Below, piece after piece: positions 15,324 to 56,872 of a stretch of 64,000 nucleotides of DNA. This DNA comes from Thiomargarita sp. Its GTDB lineage: Bacteria > Pseudomonadota > Gammaproteobacteria > Beggiatoales > Beggiatoaceae. How positions within the stretch are numbered: the first letter of the stretch is position 1; each line of letters starts with the position of its first letter. The position numbers were made by a program, and so were the translations under genes. The notes beneath the pieces are model-generated. The model ran no database searches. It was not told the DNA's origin and saw nothing but the letters and a program-made list of their open reading frames with translations. Where the stretch lies: assembly GCA_020721005.1 (NCBI GenBank), contig DYNP01000001.1, positions 344,994-408,993 on the forward strand, written 5' to 3'.

Positions 15324-16925
15324 ATGCCCATTATCAAACTAACCAACGCCAAAATTTATGATCCCATTCAGGGTAAAAATGGAATCCTCGAAGACCTATT
15401 TATCCAACACGGTCGACTCATTCCCCCCCAAACCCCAATCCACTTAGAATATGATTTACAAGGAAAAGTGGTCATGGCTGGAGGCATTGATCTACATACT
15501 CACATTGGCAGCGCCCAAGTCAATTTAGCCCGAATTCTCCTTCCAAGCTATTCCGGTCCCCCCTTAATTCCCCCAGTTCGAGACATCGGTTATCGGTATG
15601 CTGAAATGGGATACACCCACGTTGTGGAACCTGCCCTATTCCCATGCAATGCCCGTCAAACCTATGCTGCATTACAGAGTATTCCCATTCTTGACAAAAG
15701 CACCTTTGTCTTGGTCGGCCAAGATGAATTCTTACTCAATCTCCTTAGAAATCAAGCCCCTCAAACCCAACTCAACGATTACATTGCCTGGCTAGTCAAC
15801 TCCACCGCTGCCATTGGCGTAAAAATCGTCAATCCCGGCAATGTACCTGCCTTTCAATTTCACCAACGCCCCCTTGAATTGGACGAAATCAATCCCCACT
15901 GCGGTATTACACCTCGCCAAATCCTCACTCGCATCGCCCAAACAGTAGCCGAATTACAACTGCCTCACCCCTTACACCTTCACGCCTGTAATCTGGGAAT
16001 GCCTGGCAATATCACCACCACCTTAAACACTCTGGCTGCCCTAGAAGGCTGGCCCGTCCACCTAACCCATATCCAATTCCACAGCTATGGTCAAGAAGGT
16101 CCCCAGGGGTTTTCCTCAGGAGCACTTCAATTAGTTACCCAACTGCACCAACACCCAGAAATCACCGTGGACGTTGGGCAACTCCTATTTGGGCAAACCA
16201 TCACCTTATCTGCTGACACTCAAGCCCAATTTCAACACCGTTCCCAAAGCTATCCCCGGCACCATTGGGCACACTGGAACTTTGAAGGTCAAGGCGGTTG
16301 TGGCATCCTACCTTTTCGCTACCGCAACCAAAATTTTATCAACGCTTTACAATGGGTTATCGGTTTAGAAATCTTCCTCCTATTAGAAAACCCATGGCAA
16401 GTGGTGCTGACCACTGATTCCCCCAATGGCGCCCCATTTACCAGCTACCCCCATCTCATCCGCTTACTGATGGATGCCCCTTTTCGGGCCGAGAAATTAG
16501 CCGAGCTGCCTCCTTTAGTAGTAGAAAATAGCCTATTGAAAGAACTCAAACGAGAATATTCCCTTTACGAAATTGCCATTCTCACCCGATCTGCTCCCGC
16601 CCGATTACTGAATTGTAAGGACAAAGGTCATTTGGGAATTGGAGCAATTGCCGACTTGGTTGTCTATACGGAACAAACCGACAAAGAAGCCATGTTTTCC
16701 CAACCCGATTATGTGTTCAAGCGAGGAGAATGTGTGGTCAAACGAGGACAAATTATCCAAACAGTGGCAGGCAGCGTGTGGATGGCAGAGCCCAATTTTG
16801 ATCCCCATATCGAACGACAATTGGCTGCTCATTTTTCTCAACACCATTCTCTGCGTTTGGACAATTTCAAACTCAGTTCAAATGAGCGAGCCCGCTTATC
16901 GCATCCAAAGCCAGATCATTACTAA
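15324..16925 (+). CDS. fhcA: Formylmethanofuran dehydrogenase/formyltransferase-hydrolase subunit A
   Basis: 533 residues matching FwdA/FhcA, an amidohydrolase-fold subunit. In archaea it belongs to formylmethanofuran dehydrogenase; in methylotrophic bacteria FhcABCD converts formyl-H4MPT to formate. Diagnostic segments are GGIDLHTHIGSAQVNLAR (metal-binding HTH), YRYAEMGYTHVVEPAL, GVKIVNPGN, LHLHACNLGMPGNITTTL, HLTHIQFHSYG and VLTTDSPNGAPF. The subunits FhcB, C and D, which normally sit next to it, are not in the window. It may function with genes elsewhere or have been displaced. The last codons run directly into a repeat element whose left terminus supplies the TAA stop. Confidence 0.88.
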   Translation: MPIIKLTNAKIYDPIQGKNGILEDLFIQHGRLIPPQTPIHLEYDLQGKVVMAGGIDLHTHIGSAQVNLARILLPSYSGPPLIPPVRDIGYRYAEMGYTHVVEPALFPCNARQTYAALQSIPILDKSTFVLVGQDEFLLNLLRNQAPQTQLNDYIAWLVNSTAAIGVKIVNPGNVPAFQFHQRPLELDEINPHCGITPRQILTRIAQTVAELQLPHPLHLHACNLGMPGNITTTLNTLAALEGWPVHLTHIQFHSYGQEGPQGFSSGALQLVTQLHQHPEITVDVGQLLFGQTITLSADTQAQFQHRSQSYPRHHWAHWNFEGQGGCGILPFRYRNQNFINALQWVIGLEIFLLLENPWQVVLTTDSPNGAPFTSYPHLIRLLMDAPFRAEKLAELPPLVVENSLLKELKREYSLYEIAILTRSAPARLLNCKDKGHLGIGAIADLVVYTEQTDKEAMFSQPDYVFKRGECVVKRGQIIQTVAGSVWMAEPNFDPHIERQLAAHFSQHHSLRLDNFKLSSNERARLSHPKPDHY

Positions 16926-17130
16926 ACCTCTTGCAAAAGTAAATGATGTGATAAAGATGAGATAGGAAAAAATAAAAGGGAAATCCCCGTTGGGGTGGAG
17001 GCTTTAGCCGAAGTGGAGGTTCTAGAAAGTACCTTGGAGTGGAGGCTTTAGCCGGTCAGCGGTTGGCCTTTGCAATTTGTGTATGTAGGGGGATGCCTAC
17101 GGCTGACCGGCTAAAGCCTCCACTCCAACG
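16923..17130. repeat. Palindromic repeat element, family 1 (copy A)
   Basis: The left end TAAACCTCTTGCAAAAG (16923-16939) is one of the family terminal repeats (consensus TAGACCTCTTGCAAAAG) with one substitution. Internal arms GGAGTGGAGGCTTTAGCCGG (17036-17055) and its inverse (17113-17132 region) enclose a loop containing TTTGCAATTTGTGTATG. A partial unit lies at about 16993-17012. The right terminal repeat is missing, so this copy is truncated. It overlaps the stop codon of fhcA. Confidence 0.8.
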
Positions 17131-26537: not shown

Positions 26538-26770
26538 TAGATCTCTTGCAAAAGTGTGCGATAATGAAAAGATGAGTAAGGTGGGCTACAGCACTACAGC
26601 ACTTTAACCGGAGTGGAGGCTTTAGCCGGTCAATGGTCGGCATCTTGCAAGGACCGACCGCTTACCGGCTAAAGCCTCCACTCCAAGGACGCTTGCTGAC
26701 CGGCTAAAGCCTCCACTCCAAAGACGTTTTACACCCTACAGAGCTCTATATGACTTTTGCAAGAGGTCTA
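26538..26770. repeat. Palindromic repeat element, family 1 (copy B, between trpA and accD)
   Basis: Complete termini: TAGATCTCTTGCAAAAG (26538-26554) and CTTTTGCAAGAGGTCTA (26754-26770), 16 of 17 paired. Internal units are one forward GGAGTGGAGGCTTTAGCCGG (26613-26632) and two inverse copies. The loop between the first arms is shorter than in the other copies and lacks the TTTGCAATTTGTG core. The remaining parts of the 417-bp intergenic region show nothing else. Confidence 0.85.
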
Positions 26771-34865: not shown

Positions 34866-34881
34866 AACTTGTTCTATCCAT

Positions 34882-35590
34882 TAGACCTCTTGCAAAAGCA
34901 TGCGATCATGAAAAAATGAGAGTTGCCCCTCCGTTAAGAAACGTTGGAGTGGAGGCTTTAGCTGGTAAGCTGGAGTGGAGGCTTTAGCCGGTAGGCTGGA
35001 GTAGAGGCTTTAGCCGGTAGGCTGGAGTAGAGGCTTTAGCCGGTGGGCTGGAGTGAAGGCTTTAGCCGGTAGGCTGGAGTGGAGGCTTTAGCCGGTAAGT
35101 CCTTGGGCTGAAGGCTTTAGCCGGTAAGCGGTAGGTCCTTGCAATTTGTGTATGTGGAGTGATGCCTACGGCTGACCGGCTAAAGCCTCCACTCCAAGGA
35201 CTTACCGGCTAAAGCCTCCAGTCCAAGGACCTATCGGCTAAAGCCTCCAGCCCAAGGACTTACCGGCTAAAACCTCCAGCCCAAGGACTTACCAGCTAAA
35301 GCCTCCAGTCCAAGGACTTACCGGCTAAAGCCTCCACTCCAAGGACTTACCGGCTAAAGCCTCCAGTCCAAGGACCTATCGGCTAAAGCCTCCAGTCCAA
35401 GGACTTACCGGCTAAAGCCTCTACTCCAAGGACCTATCGGCTAAAGCCTCCACTCCAAGGACTTACCGGCTAAAGCCTCCAGTCCAAGGACCTACCGCTT
35501 ACCGGCTAAAGCTTCCACTCTAACGGGGATTTCCCTTTTATCCTTTCGTATCTCATCTTTATCGCATCATTTACTTTTGCAAGAGGTCTA
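34882..35590. repeat. Expanded palindromic repeat element, family 1 (copy C)
   Basis: Exact terminal inverted repeats TAGACCTCTTGCAAAAG (34882-34898) and its complement (35574-35590). The left half contains about seven forward units of GGAGTGGAGGCTTTAGCCGG type spaced about 30 bp apart. The centre has the TTGCAATTTGTGTATG core (about 35139-35154), and the right half contains about twelve inverse units separated by CTTACCGG/CCTATCGG-type spacers. It fills the 796-bp gap between ccoS and the next gene. Confidence 0.88.
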
Positions 35591-35661
35591 TTAACTATAG
35601 GAGTGCAAGTTCTGCCACAACCTGCACCCCAGAATGTTCAATTACTCCGCGGAAAATCACT

Positions 35662-43850: not shown

Positions 43851-44055
43851 TAGATATCCAGCAAAAGAATGGGATAATGAAAAAGAGTTGCCCACCCTAC
43901 CATTATCCTCCACCTAGTTAAAGTACATTGGAGTGGAGGCTTTAGCCGGTCAACGGTAGGCGCCTGCAATTTGTATGTGTGGGGTGATGCCTACTGCTGG
44001 CCGGCTAAAGCCTCCACTCCAATTTATCGCATCATTATACTTTTACAAGAGGTCT
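43851..44055. repeat. Palindromic repeat element, family 1 (copy D)
   Basis: Worn termini TAGATATCCAGCAAAAG and CTTTTACAAGAGGTCT. A single pair of long arms (GGAGTGGAGGCTTTAGCCGG at 43931-43950 and its inverse at about 44001-44020) flanks a loop with GCAATTTGTATGTG. The remainder of the 581-bp gap between convergent genes holds the CBS terminator and one family 2 repeat. Confidence 0.8.
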
Positions 44056-47789: not shown

Positions 47790-48070
47790 GAGAATAACCC
47801 TTGAGAGGCAAGGATTAACCACCCCTAACCCCTCCTTTATCCGGAGTGGAGGCTTTAGCCGGAAAGGAAGGGAAATTCAACGGCCCCCTTTTTTTTCCAA
47901 AGGGGGGGGTTGGGGGGGTATGAGGAAATACTATTAAGATAGGCTGACCACAGAAAGCCTATCAATCGCGGATTTATCAAAACTTCAACGGGCCTGACTG
48001 CCTGCTTCAGATCAGACCCCGCCGTTAATAACATAAACAACTATCTATCAACCACTTTGGAGGAAACACT
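47790..48070. other. 281-bp dsrA-dsrB spacer filled with repeat fragments
   Basis: Contains a solo family 1 arm GGAGTGGAGGCTTTAGCCGG (47842-47861), a C/G-run hairpin (CCCCCTTT / AAAGGGGG, 47884-47906) and an inverse family 2 repeat (47936-47970, reading AAAGCCTATCAATCGCG). The hairpin and G-runs end about 100 bp before dsrB. dsrA and dsrB are normally nearly adjacent. Confidence 0.75.
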
Positions 48071-55972: not shown

Positions 55973-56872
55973 TTTAAACGGGATTCTTTTGTGCAATCTG
56001 AGGAATAACATTCCTTAAAAGTATGTTATCCCTACATTACAGCAGATGTAGGACGGACTGCCGAGAGGCCTATTGTTGGAGCTATCCATTAGTAACTTGA
56101 AAAGTATTGCTGGGCTTTTCAGTTGAAATACCTTGGAGTGGAGGCTTTAGCCGGTCAGCCGTAGGCATCACCCCGCACACACAAGTTGCAAAGCGCCTAC
56201 CGCTGGCCGGCTAAAGCCTCCACTCCAGTGGGAATTCCTCTCTCTAAATAATATGTTGCAAGAGTATAGGATAATGAAAAGATGAAAGTTACCCACCCTA
56301 CCATTATCCCTCCATAAGTTGAAATACCTTGGAGTGGAGGCTTTAGCCGGCCGGCGATAGGCGATTTGCAACTTGTGTGTACGGGGTGATGTCTACGGCT
56401 GACTGGCTAAAGCCTCCACTCCAGTGGGAATTTCCCTCTCTAAATAATATGTTGCAAGAGTATAGGATAATGAAAAGATGAAAGTTGCCCACCCTACCAT
56501 TATCCCTCCATAAATTGAAATACCTTGGAGTGGAGGCTTTAGCCGGCCGGCGGTAGGCGCTTTGCAATTTGTGTGTGCGGGTTGATGCCTACGGCTGACT
56601 GGCTAAAGCCTCCACTCCAGTGGGAATTTCCTTCTCTGAATAATATGGCTGGATTTGGGTGGGTAACGGTAAAGCGGTTGCCCCCTCTACCATTAGACTT
56701 TTAGCAATTTTATTTTTTCGTATCTCATCTTTATCGCATCATTTTCTTTTGCAAGAGGTTTATTATTGGGCTTTCTGTGGGTGAGCCCCTCCTACATATG
56801 CTGCAGTCAGTAATTTCGCTGTTGTATTATTTTTAGAGCAGCAAGTCATTTAATCAATTGGAGAGATGTGTG
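55973..56872. other. 900-bp dsrJ-dsrO gap with triplicated palindromic element
   Basis: Holds the copy E of the family 1 element. The three units start (TTGGAGTGGAGGC) at 56134, 56329 and 56525, a period of 195-196 bp. Between units lie near-identical pieces with AATAATATGTTGCAAGAG and CCACCCTACCATTATCC. The right terminal repeat is CTTTTGCAAGAGGTTTA (56747-56763), and a worn family 2 repeat follows (about 56766-56795). Minus-strand frames within the units are not genes. Confidence 0.85.
56128..56763. repeat. Palindromic repeat element, family 1 (copy E, inside the dsr operon)
   Basis: Three tandem units with forward arms GGAGTGGAGGCTTTAGCCGG and inverse arms. In unit 1 the loop runs in the opposite direction to units 2 and 3 (and to copies A, C and D): CCCGCACACACAAGTTGCAA in unit 1 against TTGCAACTTGTGTGTACGGG in unit 2. 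Confidence 0.85.

Follow-up and report, generated by a model that had tools for sequence, protein, structure and literature searches.

Structure of the repeat element

How does a short element without a gene come to be filled with copies of a palindromic unit, pointing one way to the left of a core and the other way to its right? The question is raised by a locus in the window, by which we mean the whole 64,000-nucleotide stretch analyzed here (C67:344994-408993, from a host genome of 4.05 Mb in 133 contigs). A first-pass annotation had described a MITE-like element at 34882-35590, and this observation was confirmed as real. The element comprises 707 bp (34883-35589). Both ends are perfect 16-bp inverted repeats, AGACCTCTTGCAAAAG, located at 34883-34898 on the plus strand and at 35574-35589 on the minus strand, and each is flanked on the outside by ATT (34880-34882 and 35590-35592), the two copies of a target-site duplication. 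The ends had been given as perfect over 17 bp; they are indeed perfect and inverse, but they measure 16 bp, the 17th base being part of the duplication.

The interior is built from a 20-bp unit, present in 7 forward and 12 inverse copies around a core of 51 bp. The left arm (34946-35124, plus strand) holds the forward units, mostly with a period of 26 bp (five start-to-start steps of 26 bp and one of 29 bp), and the right arm (35176-35521, minus strand) holds the inverse units, mostly with a period of 29 bp (ten steps of 29 bp and a last one of 36 bp). The core spacer occupies 35125-35175, and the innermost plus and minus unit starts are 71 bp apart. The total of 19 agrees with the roughly twenty units, forward on the left and inverse on the right, that had been announced, and the absence of an ORF was borne out as well, since none of ≥40 aa overlaps the element. 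We consider it highly probable that the element is a composite, with an IS5-type MITE outside, a founder REP doublet inside, and arms that were expanded locus by locus after insertion.

Copies in the window and in the genome

The inverted ends recur, as had been proposed. In the window, the 17-mer end gave 8 matches at ≤3 mismatches vs. 0.27 expected. In the whole genome there were 82 exact 17-mers (reversed control 0), 84 exact 16-mers, 234 16-mer ends at ≤2 mismatches (control 1) and 1,312 copies of the 20-bp unit at ≤3 mismatches (control 0).

Five loci of the window had been listed as sharing their termini. This holds for the one described above and for that at 26538, a second complete element of 231 bp (26539-26769) with three units and the flanks AAT/AAT. 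It holds only in part for the others. The third element (43852-44055, 204 bp) contains one REP doublet with 71-bp spacing between the flanks AAT and GAT, but its left end has 4 mismatches. The partial element at 16924-17126 consists of a left end (1 mismatch) and three units, its right end being unrecognised at ≤3 mismatches. At 56135-56761 there are three REP doublets, mostly in a 196-bp tandem repeat, and only a right end (56746-56762, 1 mismatch). A sixth cluster is a lone unit on the plus strand (47843-47862), near which a MITE end was absent at ≤3 mismatches.

All six unit clusters of the window are located outside ORFs of ≥100 aa, which make up 83% of its length; none of 20,000 random placements reproduced this. 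Four of the five tandem-repeat rows of the window belong to these elements. Within 56195-56647, a whole REP doublet with its linker forms the 196-bp tandem unit (2.3 copies by TRF), an amplification on a larger scale than the arm arrays. At the partial element on the left of the window, the ORF at 15324-16925 closes with a TAA stop codon (16923-16925) that runs across the outer edge of the left MITE end (T + AAACC), and the 3′ limit of this ORF thus appears to result from the insertion.

In the stretches fetched from the genome, 53 paired elements were found (both ends at ≤4 mismatches, at least one unit); they came mainly from places with an exact end, and the sample therefore favours intact ends. 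Their lengths ranged from 190 to 788 bp and their units from 1 to 19 per element, the copy at 34882 being the largest by unit number. The amplification of units inside the element, which had been called unusual, is thus real and common in this genome.

Target-site duplication and origin of the outer ends

The outside of the composite is a MITE. This assignment rests on identical 3-bp flanks and on a complete IS5-family element from Nostoc, described below, whose ends are almost identical; the design proposed by the first-pass annotation was correct in this respect. The 3-bp flanks were identical in 39 of the 53 paired elements, 38 of them ANT, and random pairing of the flanks gave a mean of 18.1 and never reached 39 in 100,000 permutations. 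The duplication therefore has a constant length, and the element is short, non-coding (ORFs were examined for the 34883 element only) and bounded by terminal inverted repeats. The ends had also been described as TA-bordered. TA is present on either side because the duplication is ANT; a duplication of TA alone was rejected, since among the 43 elements with ANT on both flanks the middle base was equal in 38 vs. 18.6 expected.

Relatives from other genera of the family or class were searched for the exact 16-mer. Among 57 genomes, including the host, it occurred only in the host, in G019 (three copies) and in G033 (three copies). In G033, each of the three copies sits at the end of a contig, where it directly follows the C-terminus of an IS5-like transposase, and in G019 one of the three adjoins a decayed piece of the same type of transposase peptide. 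A plasmid search with the IS5-like transposase peptide (109 records) led to the full-length transposon that had been suggested as a check. This element, on plasmid p057_H of Nostoc sp. C057 (L148 711-1664), is 954 bp long, has AGACCTCTTGCAAAAA at both ends and is flanked by AAT/AAT. Its transposase matched the NCBIfam IS5 family model NF033581 with 182 bits (cut-off 140). Its ends share 15 of 16 bases with those of the Thiomargarita element, which differs from it in being non-autonomous. The other three elements inspected, one from Geminocystis and two from Acinetobacter, had similar but less exact ends. No match was obtained in a phage search with one 709-bp element or in a plasmid search with one 204-bp element, and a literature search for the end strings yielded nothing relevant, only a paper on a human gene.

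An autonomous parent with these ends was not found in the host genome, either by a PF01609 profile search or by a peptide search, which gave no match. A PF01609 match on contig 95 was considered as the parent and rejected because it has other ends. The ISL2 group is known for ANT target duplications, and the MITE ends presumably belong to this group of IS5. The outer part is a non-autonomous miniature element that shares the ends and the 3-bp ANT duplication of an IS5-family group, and both features point to an IS5-type DDE transposase acting in trans. Such an enzyme would have moved the element and is probably no longer encoded in the host genome, although the failure to find a matching transposase there weighs against mobilisation in trans.

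The inner unit is a REP

What the first-pass annotation overlooked is the nature of the inner unit, a palindrome of the REP type. The inside of the composite is a GGAGT-tagged REP with the unit GGAGTGGAGGCTTTAGCCGG, usually arranged as an inverted doublet. It is a short palindrome with a conserved GGAG tag, a high copy number and an intergenic location, and a gene for a REP-associated tyrosine transposase (RAYT, model NF047646) is present in the genome. Its stem is short: the mini-stem of a single unit has three pairs and is ordinary for its composition (z −0.76), an argument against a strong REP hairpin. For the 91-bp doublet in the 43852 element, a fold of −35.3 kcal/mol (z −11) was predicted. 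The spacing between the starts of a plus unit and the following minus unit was 71 bp in 33 of 56 pairs. The doublet is a REPIN-like hairpin, of the type handled by RAYTs, which are HUH enzymes.

Stem pair 10-17 was almost invariant in the host genome (G-C in 427 of 435 units, A-C in 6 and a G-T wobble in 2). In 39 Chloroflexi units from 19 stretches (L202, which overlaps L072, was left out) it was G-C in 26 and C-G in 13, and none was uncompensated. This swap is a compensated change, as the stem predicts. At least one C-C at this pair was seen among the units of G408; like the eight exceptions in the host, it is uncompensated and speaks against the REP reading.

The unit occurs in more than one phylum. 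At ≤2 mismatches it was detected in only two of 42 genomes of the family, the host (1,228 matches) and G007 (1,523), and at ≤1 mismatch in three of 369 genomes of the class. Two of these three had a single match each, probably by chance, since reversed controls also gave single matches. The exact 20-mer is present in at least the following further hosts: among the matches listed, 11 of 70 stretches belonged to Chloroflexi and three to a Thiomargarita MAG. The idea that the unit is private to the host genome was therefore rejected, and so was chance as a source of the matches, the reversed controls being 0. In five Chloroflexi genomes the degenerate unit occurred 12, 141, 420, 102, and 42 times (reversed control 0). 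The string GGCTTTAGCC matched a REP paper in the literature, in the accessible text of which the matching REP is that of Haemophilus influenzae.

Association with RAYT genes

The RAYT gene of the host (C67:44727-45125, outside the window) scored 108 bits against NF047646 (cut-off 80). Two more RAYT matches were counted in the genome; a 113-aa frame on C104, with 86 bits, is one of the two. No unit flanks the host RAYT gene, nor the partial Y1/RAYT matches L208 and L209. In four of five Chloroflexi genomes, the unit adjoins one RAYT gene each, with 17 units in G409, 8 in G411 and 3 in G410, and in G407 with 4 units of a variant that has 2 mismatches; the units are located on both sides of the gene in three of these genomes and on one side only in G411. 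The host RAYT is 35–39% identical to these four. Units were absent beside the other Chloroflexi RAYTs L201, L205, and L219 (from G407, G409, and G411) and beside L206 and L207 of G408. One of these, L201 (G411:C149:17200-18768), is a second RAYT of the Caldilineales genome G411, and the palindromes on its flanks belong to another family (TAACGGCTTCAGCCGTTA and others). Just upstream of the host RAYT (L210) there is one palindrome, AACGGCTAAAGCCGTTAC, similar to those of L201.

The seven nearest relatives of the host RAYT within the family (L154, L155, L156, L157, L158, L159, and L167, from related genera) are flanked by other palindromes starting with GGAGT, and the six of them that were compared are 52–58% identical to it. 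The unit-rich genome G007 has only two RAYTs, which fall on a distant branch (28–29% identical). The RAYT tree comprised 29 hand-chosen members of 67 RAYT-like ORFs, some of the 67 being duplicates, and its deep forks are weak or open; flanks were compared for 13 chosen RAYTs. Judging from the GGAGT palindromes beside the family RAYTs and the unit beside the Chloroflexi RAYTs, a REP with a GGAGT tag seems to characterise this branch of RAYTs, although the lack of units beside the host RAYT and the distant RAYTs of G007 speak against it. The flanks of the family RAYTs suggest a GGAG-tagged counterpart of the GTAG REPs. Judged by its relatives, the host RAYT may be the cognate enzyme of the unit.

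Growth of the arrays

The array period varied with the locus. Periods of 26, 36, 18, and 43–44 bp were the commonest, and a period of 29 bp occurred only in the 34883 element among the 53. The 36-bp unit extends the REP by the adjoining 16 bp of hairpin arm and terminates in CCTT, letters that often stand before a unit. A slip between CCTTG in the arm and CCTTG before the unit would give such a 36-bp unit. The linkers of the 26-bp units (13 arrays, 66 units) had an identity of 0.88 within vs. 0.61 between arrays, and those of the 36-bp units (7 arrays, 29 units) 0.87 within vs. 0.76 between; neither difference was reached in 2,000 permutations. Because linkers are alike within arrays, the arrays were homogenised locally, after insertion. 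The founder would already have held the doublet and been amplified together with it, and the arms of single copies would have become tandem arrays, the likeliest process being slippage during replication, or else unequal recombination, at short repeats such as CCTTG and TTGGAGT.

A considerably less probable mechanism is growth driven by RAYT, in which the tyrosine transposase cleaves single-stranded DNA beside the GGAG tag and joins units, with no passive slippage. The host genome has a RAYT, and unit arrays adjoin the Chloroflexi RAYTs. Among the arm units other than the first, TT precedes 168 of 202 listed (the top 25 four-letter words) and CCTT precedes 75, which places the junctions at a fixed site before GGAG. 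The REPtron substrates had CT or CA cleavage sites next to the tag in the available part of their description (PMC8266576), which we counted in favour of this mechanism. However, TT also precedes the first arm units (98 of 102 listed), so the same junction follows from copying of the local sequence. Slippage also explains why the 36-bp linkers end in CCTT like the hairpin arm, and at 56135-56761 a 196-bp segment with a whole doublet was repeated as well. Slippage or unequal recombination thus remains the preferred reading of array growth.

A second set of ends around the same REP

In G007, the doublet is enclosed in another way. The G007 count covered 20 stretches from the unit listing and 56 stretches of the same MAG among the matches listed. 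None of 57 doublets inspected had an IS5-type end within 200 bp. Instead, a different inverted end, TGCCATTAAGTTAAGG, was located within 60 bp of 31 of the 57, and on both sides of 18, where the enclosed stretches measured 137–150 bp. This end occurred 101 times in the G007 stretches vs. 3 in the reversed control. In the host genome, doublets had an IS5-type end in 73 of 91 cases and a TGCCATTAAGTTAAGG end in two, in a sample partly chosen by end. An autonomous parent of the TGCCATTAAGTTAAGG ends was not found within the stretches searched.

The TGCCATTAAGTTAAGG ends also enclose other palindromes, namely a GTAG-tagged pair in the G007 MAG (L122 5316-5434) and a GGAGTCC-type pair in a Thiomargarita MAG (L083 2312-2428). 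Several TGCCATTAAGTTAAGG copies are themselves flanked by unit halves. Such ends may serve as a common frame for cargo of the REP type; alternatively, palindromes may insert into the tips of hairpins.

We put forward, as a speculation that is more likely wrong than right, a relay of two engines. The HUH-type REP doublet would use DDE-type MITEs as interchangeable vehicles, with IS5-type ends here and TGCCATTAAGTTAAGG ends in another genus, and RAYT would keep adding arm units; the REP 20-mer would have stayed identical across phyla, and its RAYT would have diverged to <40% identity.

Origin of the composite

Another explanation is that the MITEs came first and that REP doublets, mobile on their own, entered them in many separate events. 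The TGCCATTAAGTTAAGG ends at 31 of 57 G007 doublets, and their use around other palindromes, would fit this proposal, as would an end-blind sample of the host genome. This sample comprised 30 unit clusters holding an exact unit on contigs 11, 20, 22, and 44, of which 26 had a plus-minus doublet, 19 at least one MITE end (≤4 mismatches) and six both. The remaining 11 of 30 clusters had no MITE end, and some doublets may therefore have spread or survived without the MITE. However, insertion into pre-existing MITEs should leave empty ones, and these are almost absent. The fetched stretches contained 113 distinct ends at ≤1 mismatch, one of them too near the end of its stretch, and a unit (≤5 mismatches) was located ≤260 bp away from 111 of the other 112. 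This suggested that the units were part of the amplified founder. In addition, the 71-bp spacing is common to 33 of the 56 plus-minus pairs, for which one founder composite is the simpler account. Repeated independent insertion is thus quite unlikely, and a single founder that was amplified with its doublet is favoured. The one IS5-type end without a nearby unit (L263 306) has a GTAGGGTGGATAA stretch in its interior instead.

It is very unlikely that the arrays are functional hairpin RNAs or transcription terminators maintained by selection. The first-pass annotation had suggested that the two halves could fold into a long cruciform or RNA, and the DNA of the 34882 copy does have a strong predicted fold (−241.6 kcal/mol, z −24.6, 20 shuffles); its position is intergenic. 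The hairpin potential follows from the inverted arrays, however, and the RNA part of the suggestion found no evidence. A scan of the window with Rfam gave a single match, a tRNA, and none in the element. Between 34600 and 35950, one terminator-like site was detected vs. 1.8 expected, and none of three promoter-like sites lies inside the element. Moreover, the unit number varies from 1 to 19 between copies.

An assembly artefact can practically be dismissed: although the genome is in 133 contigs and repeats are prone to collapse, collapse shortens arrays and cannot make them, the copies differ in flanks, linkers, and period, and the contig that holds the element is 454 kb long and ends about 74 kb away from it.

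Comparison with known systems

The closest precedent is BrickBuilt, with 464/PgRS, of Porphyromonas gingivalis. According to the portion of the report that was available (PMC4596501), BrickBuilt is MITE-like and intergenic, with IS5-type ends (GAGACCTTTGCA) and a minisatellite (23 or 41 nt) of variable repeat number, and the present element likewise encloses a tandem array within IS5-type ends. BrickBuilt has 19 copies, each with one direct-repeat block between a leader and a tail, whereas the arms are inverted here. The same portion gives matches of the BrickBuilt repeat in P. gingivalis and P. gulae only and does not call it a REP; the present unit, in contrast, is a REP with copies in more than one phylum. 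The duplications of BrickBuilt are irregular, whereas ANT is regular here. The ATR/ISNme1 elements of Neisseria, with IS5-type ends and a reported association with REP2 (PMC4596501, same portion), are likened to the present element by description only.

In REPINs and REP doublets with RAYT, two inverted REPs also form a hairpin, as described in the accessible sections of two papers (PMC3116915; PMC2817692). The first of these gives a spacing of 71 bp for the GI doublet of P. fluorescens SBW25, which is the commonest spacing here too, and also mentions clusters and tandem arrays of REPs in P. fluorescens (PMC3116915, accessible sections). Compared with REPINs as described there, the present doublet is located within DDE-type inverted ends, has a GGAG tag rather than GTAG or GTGG, and has a short mini-stem. 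GTAG-tagged repeats are known in Chloroflexi, and the word GGAG gave no match in the searchable part of that paper (PMC3733652).

Candidatus Thiomargarita nelsonii, a giant sulfur bacterium, has many palindromic MITEs, one of which is fused with a group I intron; its hupL MITE has a 19-bp inverted repeat and a 10-bp direct repeat, and the accessible part of the source does not mention REP arrays (PMC4853749). The openly readable literature searched, seen partly as excerpts, yielded no MITE that encloses a REP doublet. The element joins three known kinds, namely an IS5-type MITE, a REPIN-like doublet and a minisatellite.

As a rule, MITEs and REPs are kept apart as two classes of small bacterial repeats whose transposing enzymes are unrelated. 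This genome combines them in at least 53 paired copies and, by the count of ends, perhaps in over a hundred. Each of the two unrelated mobile systems is less unusual by itself than one nested in the other. The same REP is fused differently in a second genus, which provides a testable case of one selfish repeat as the cargo of another, and the 1 to 19 units per element within one genome are a natural series for the start and growth of a bacterial minisatellite.
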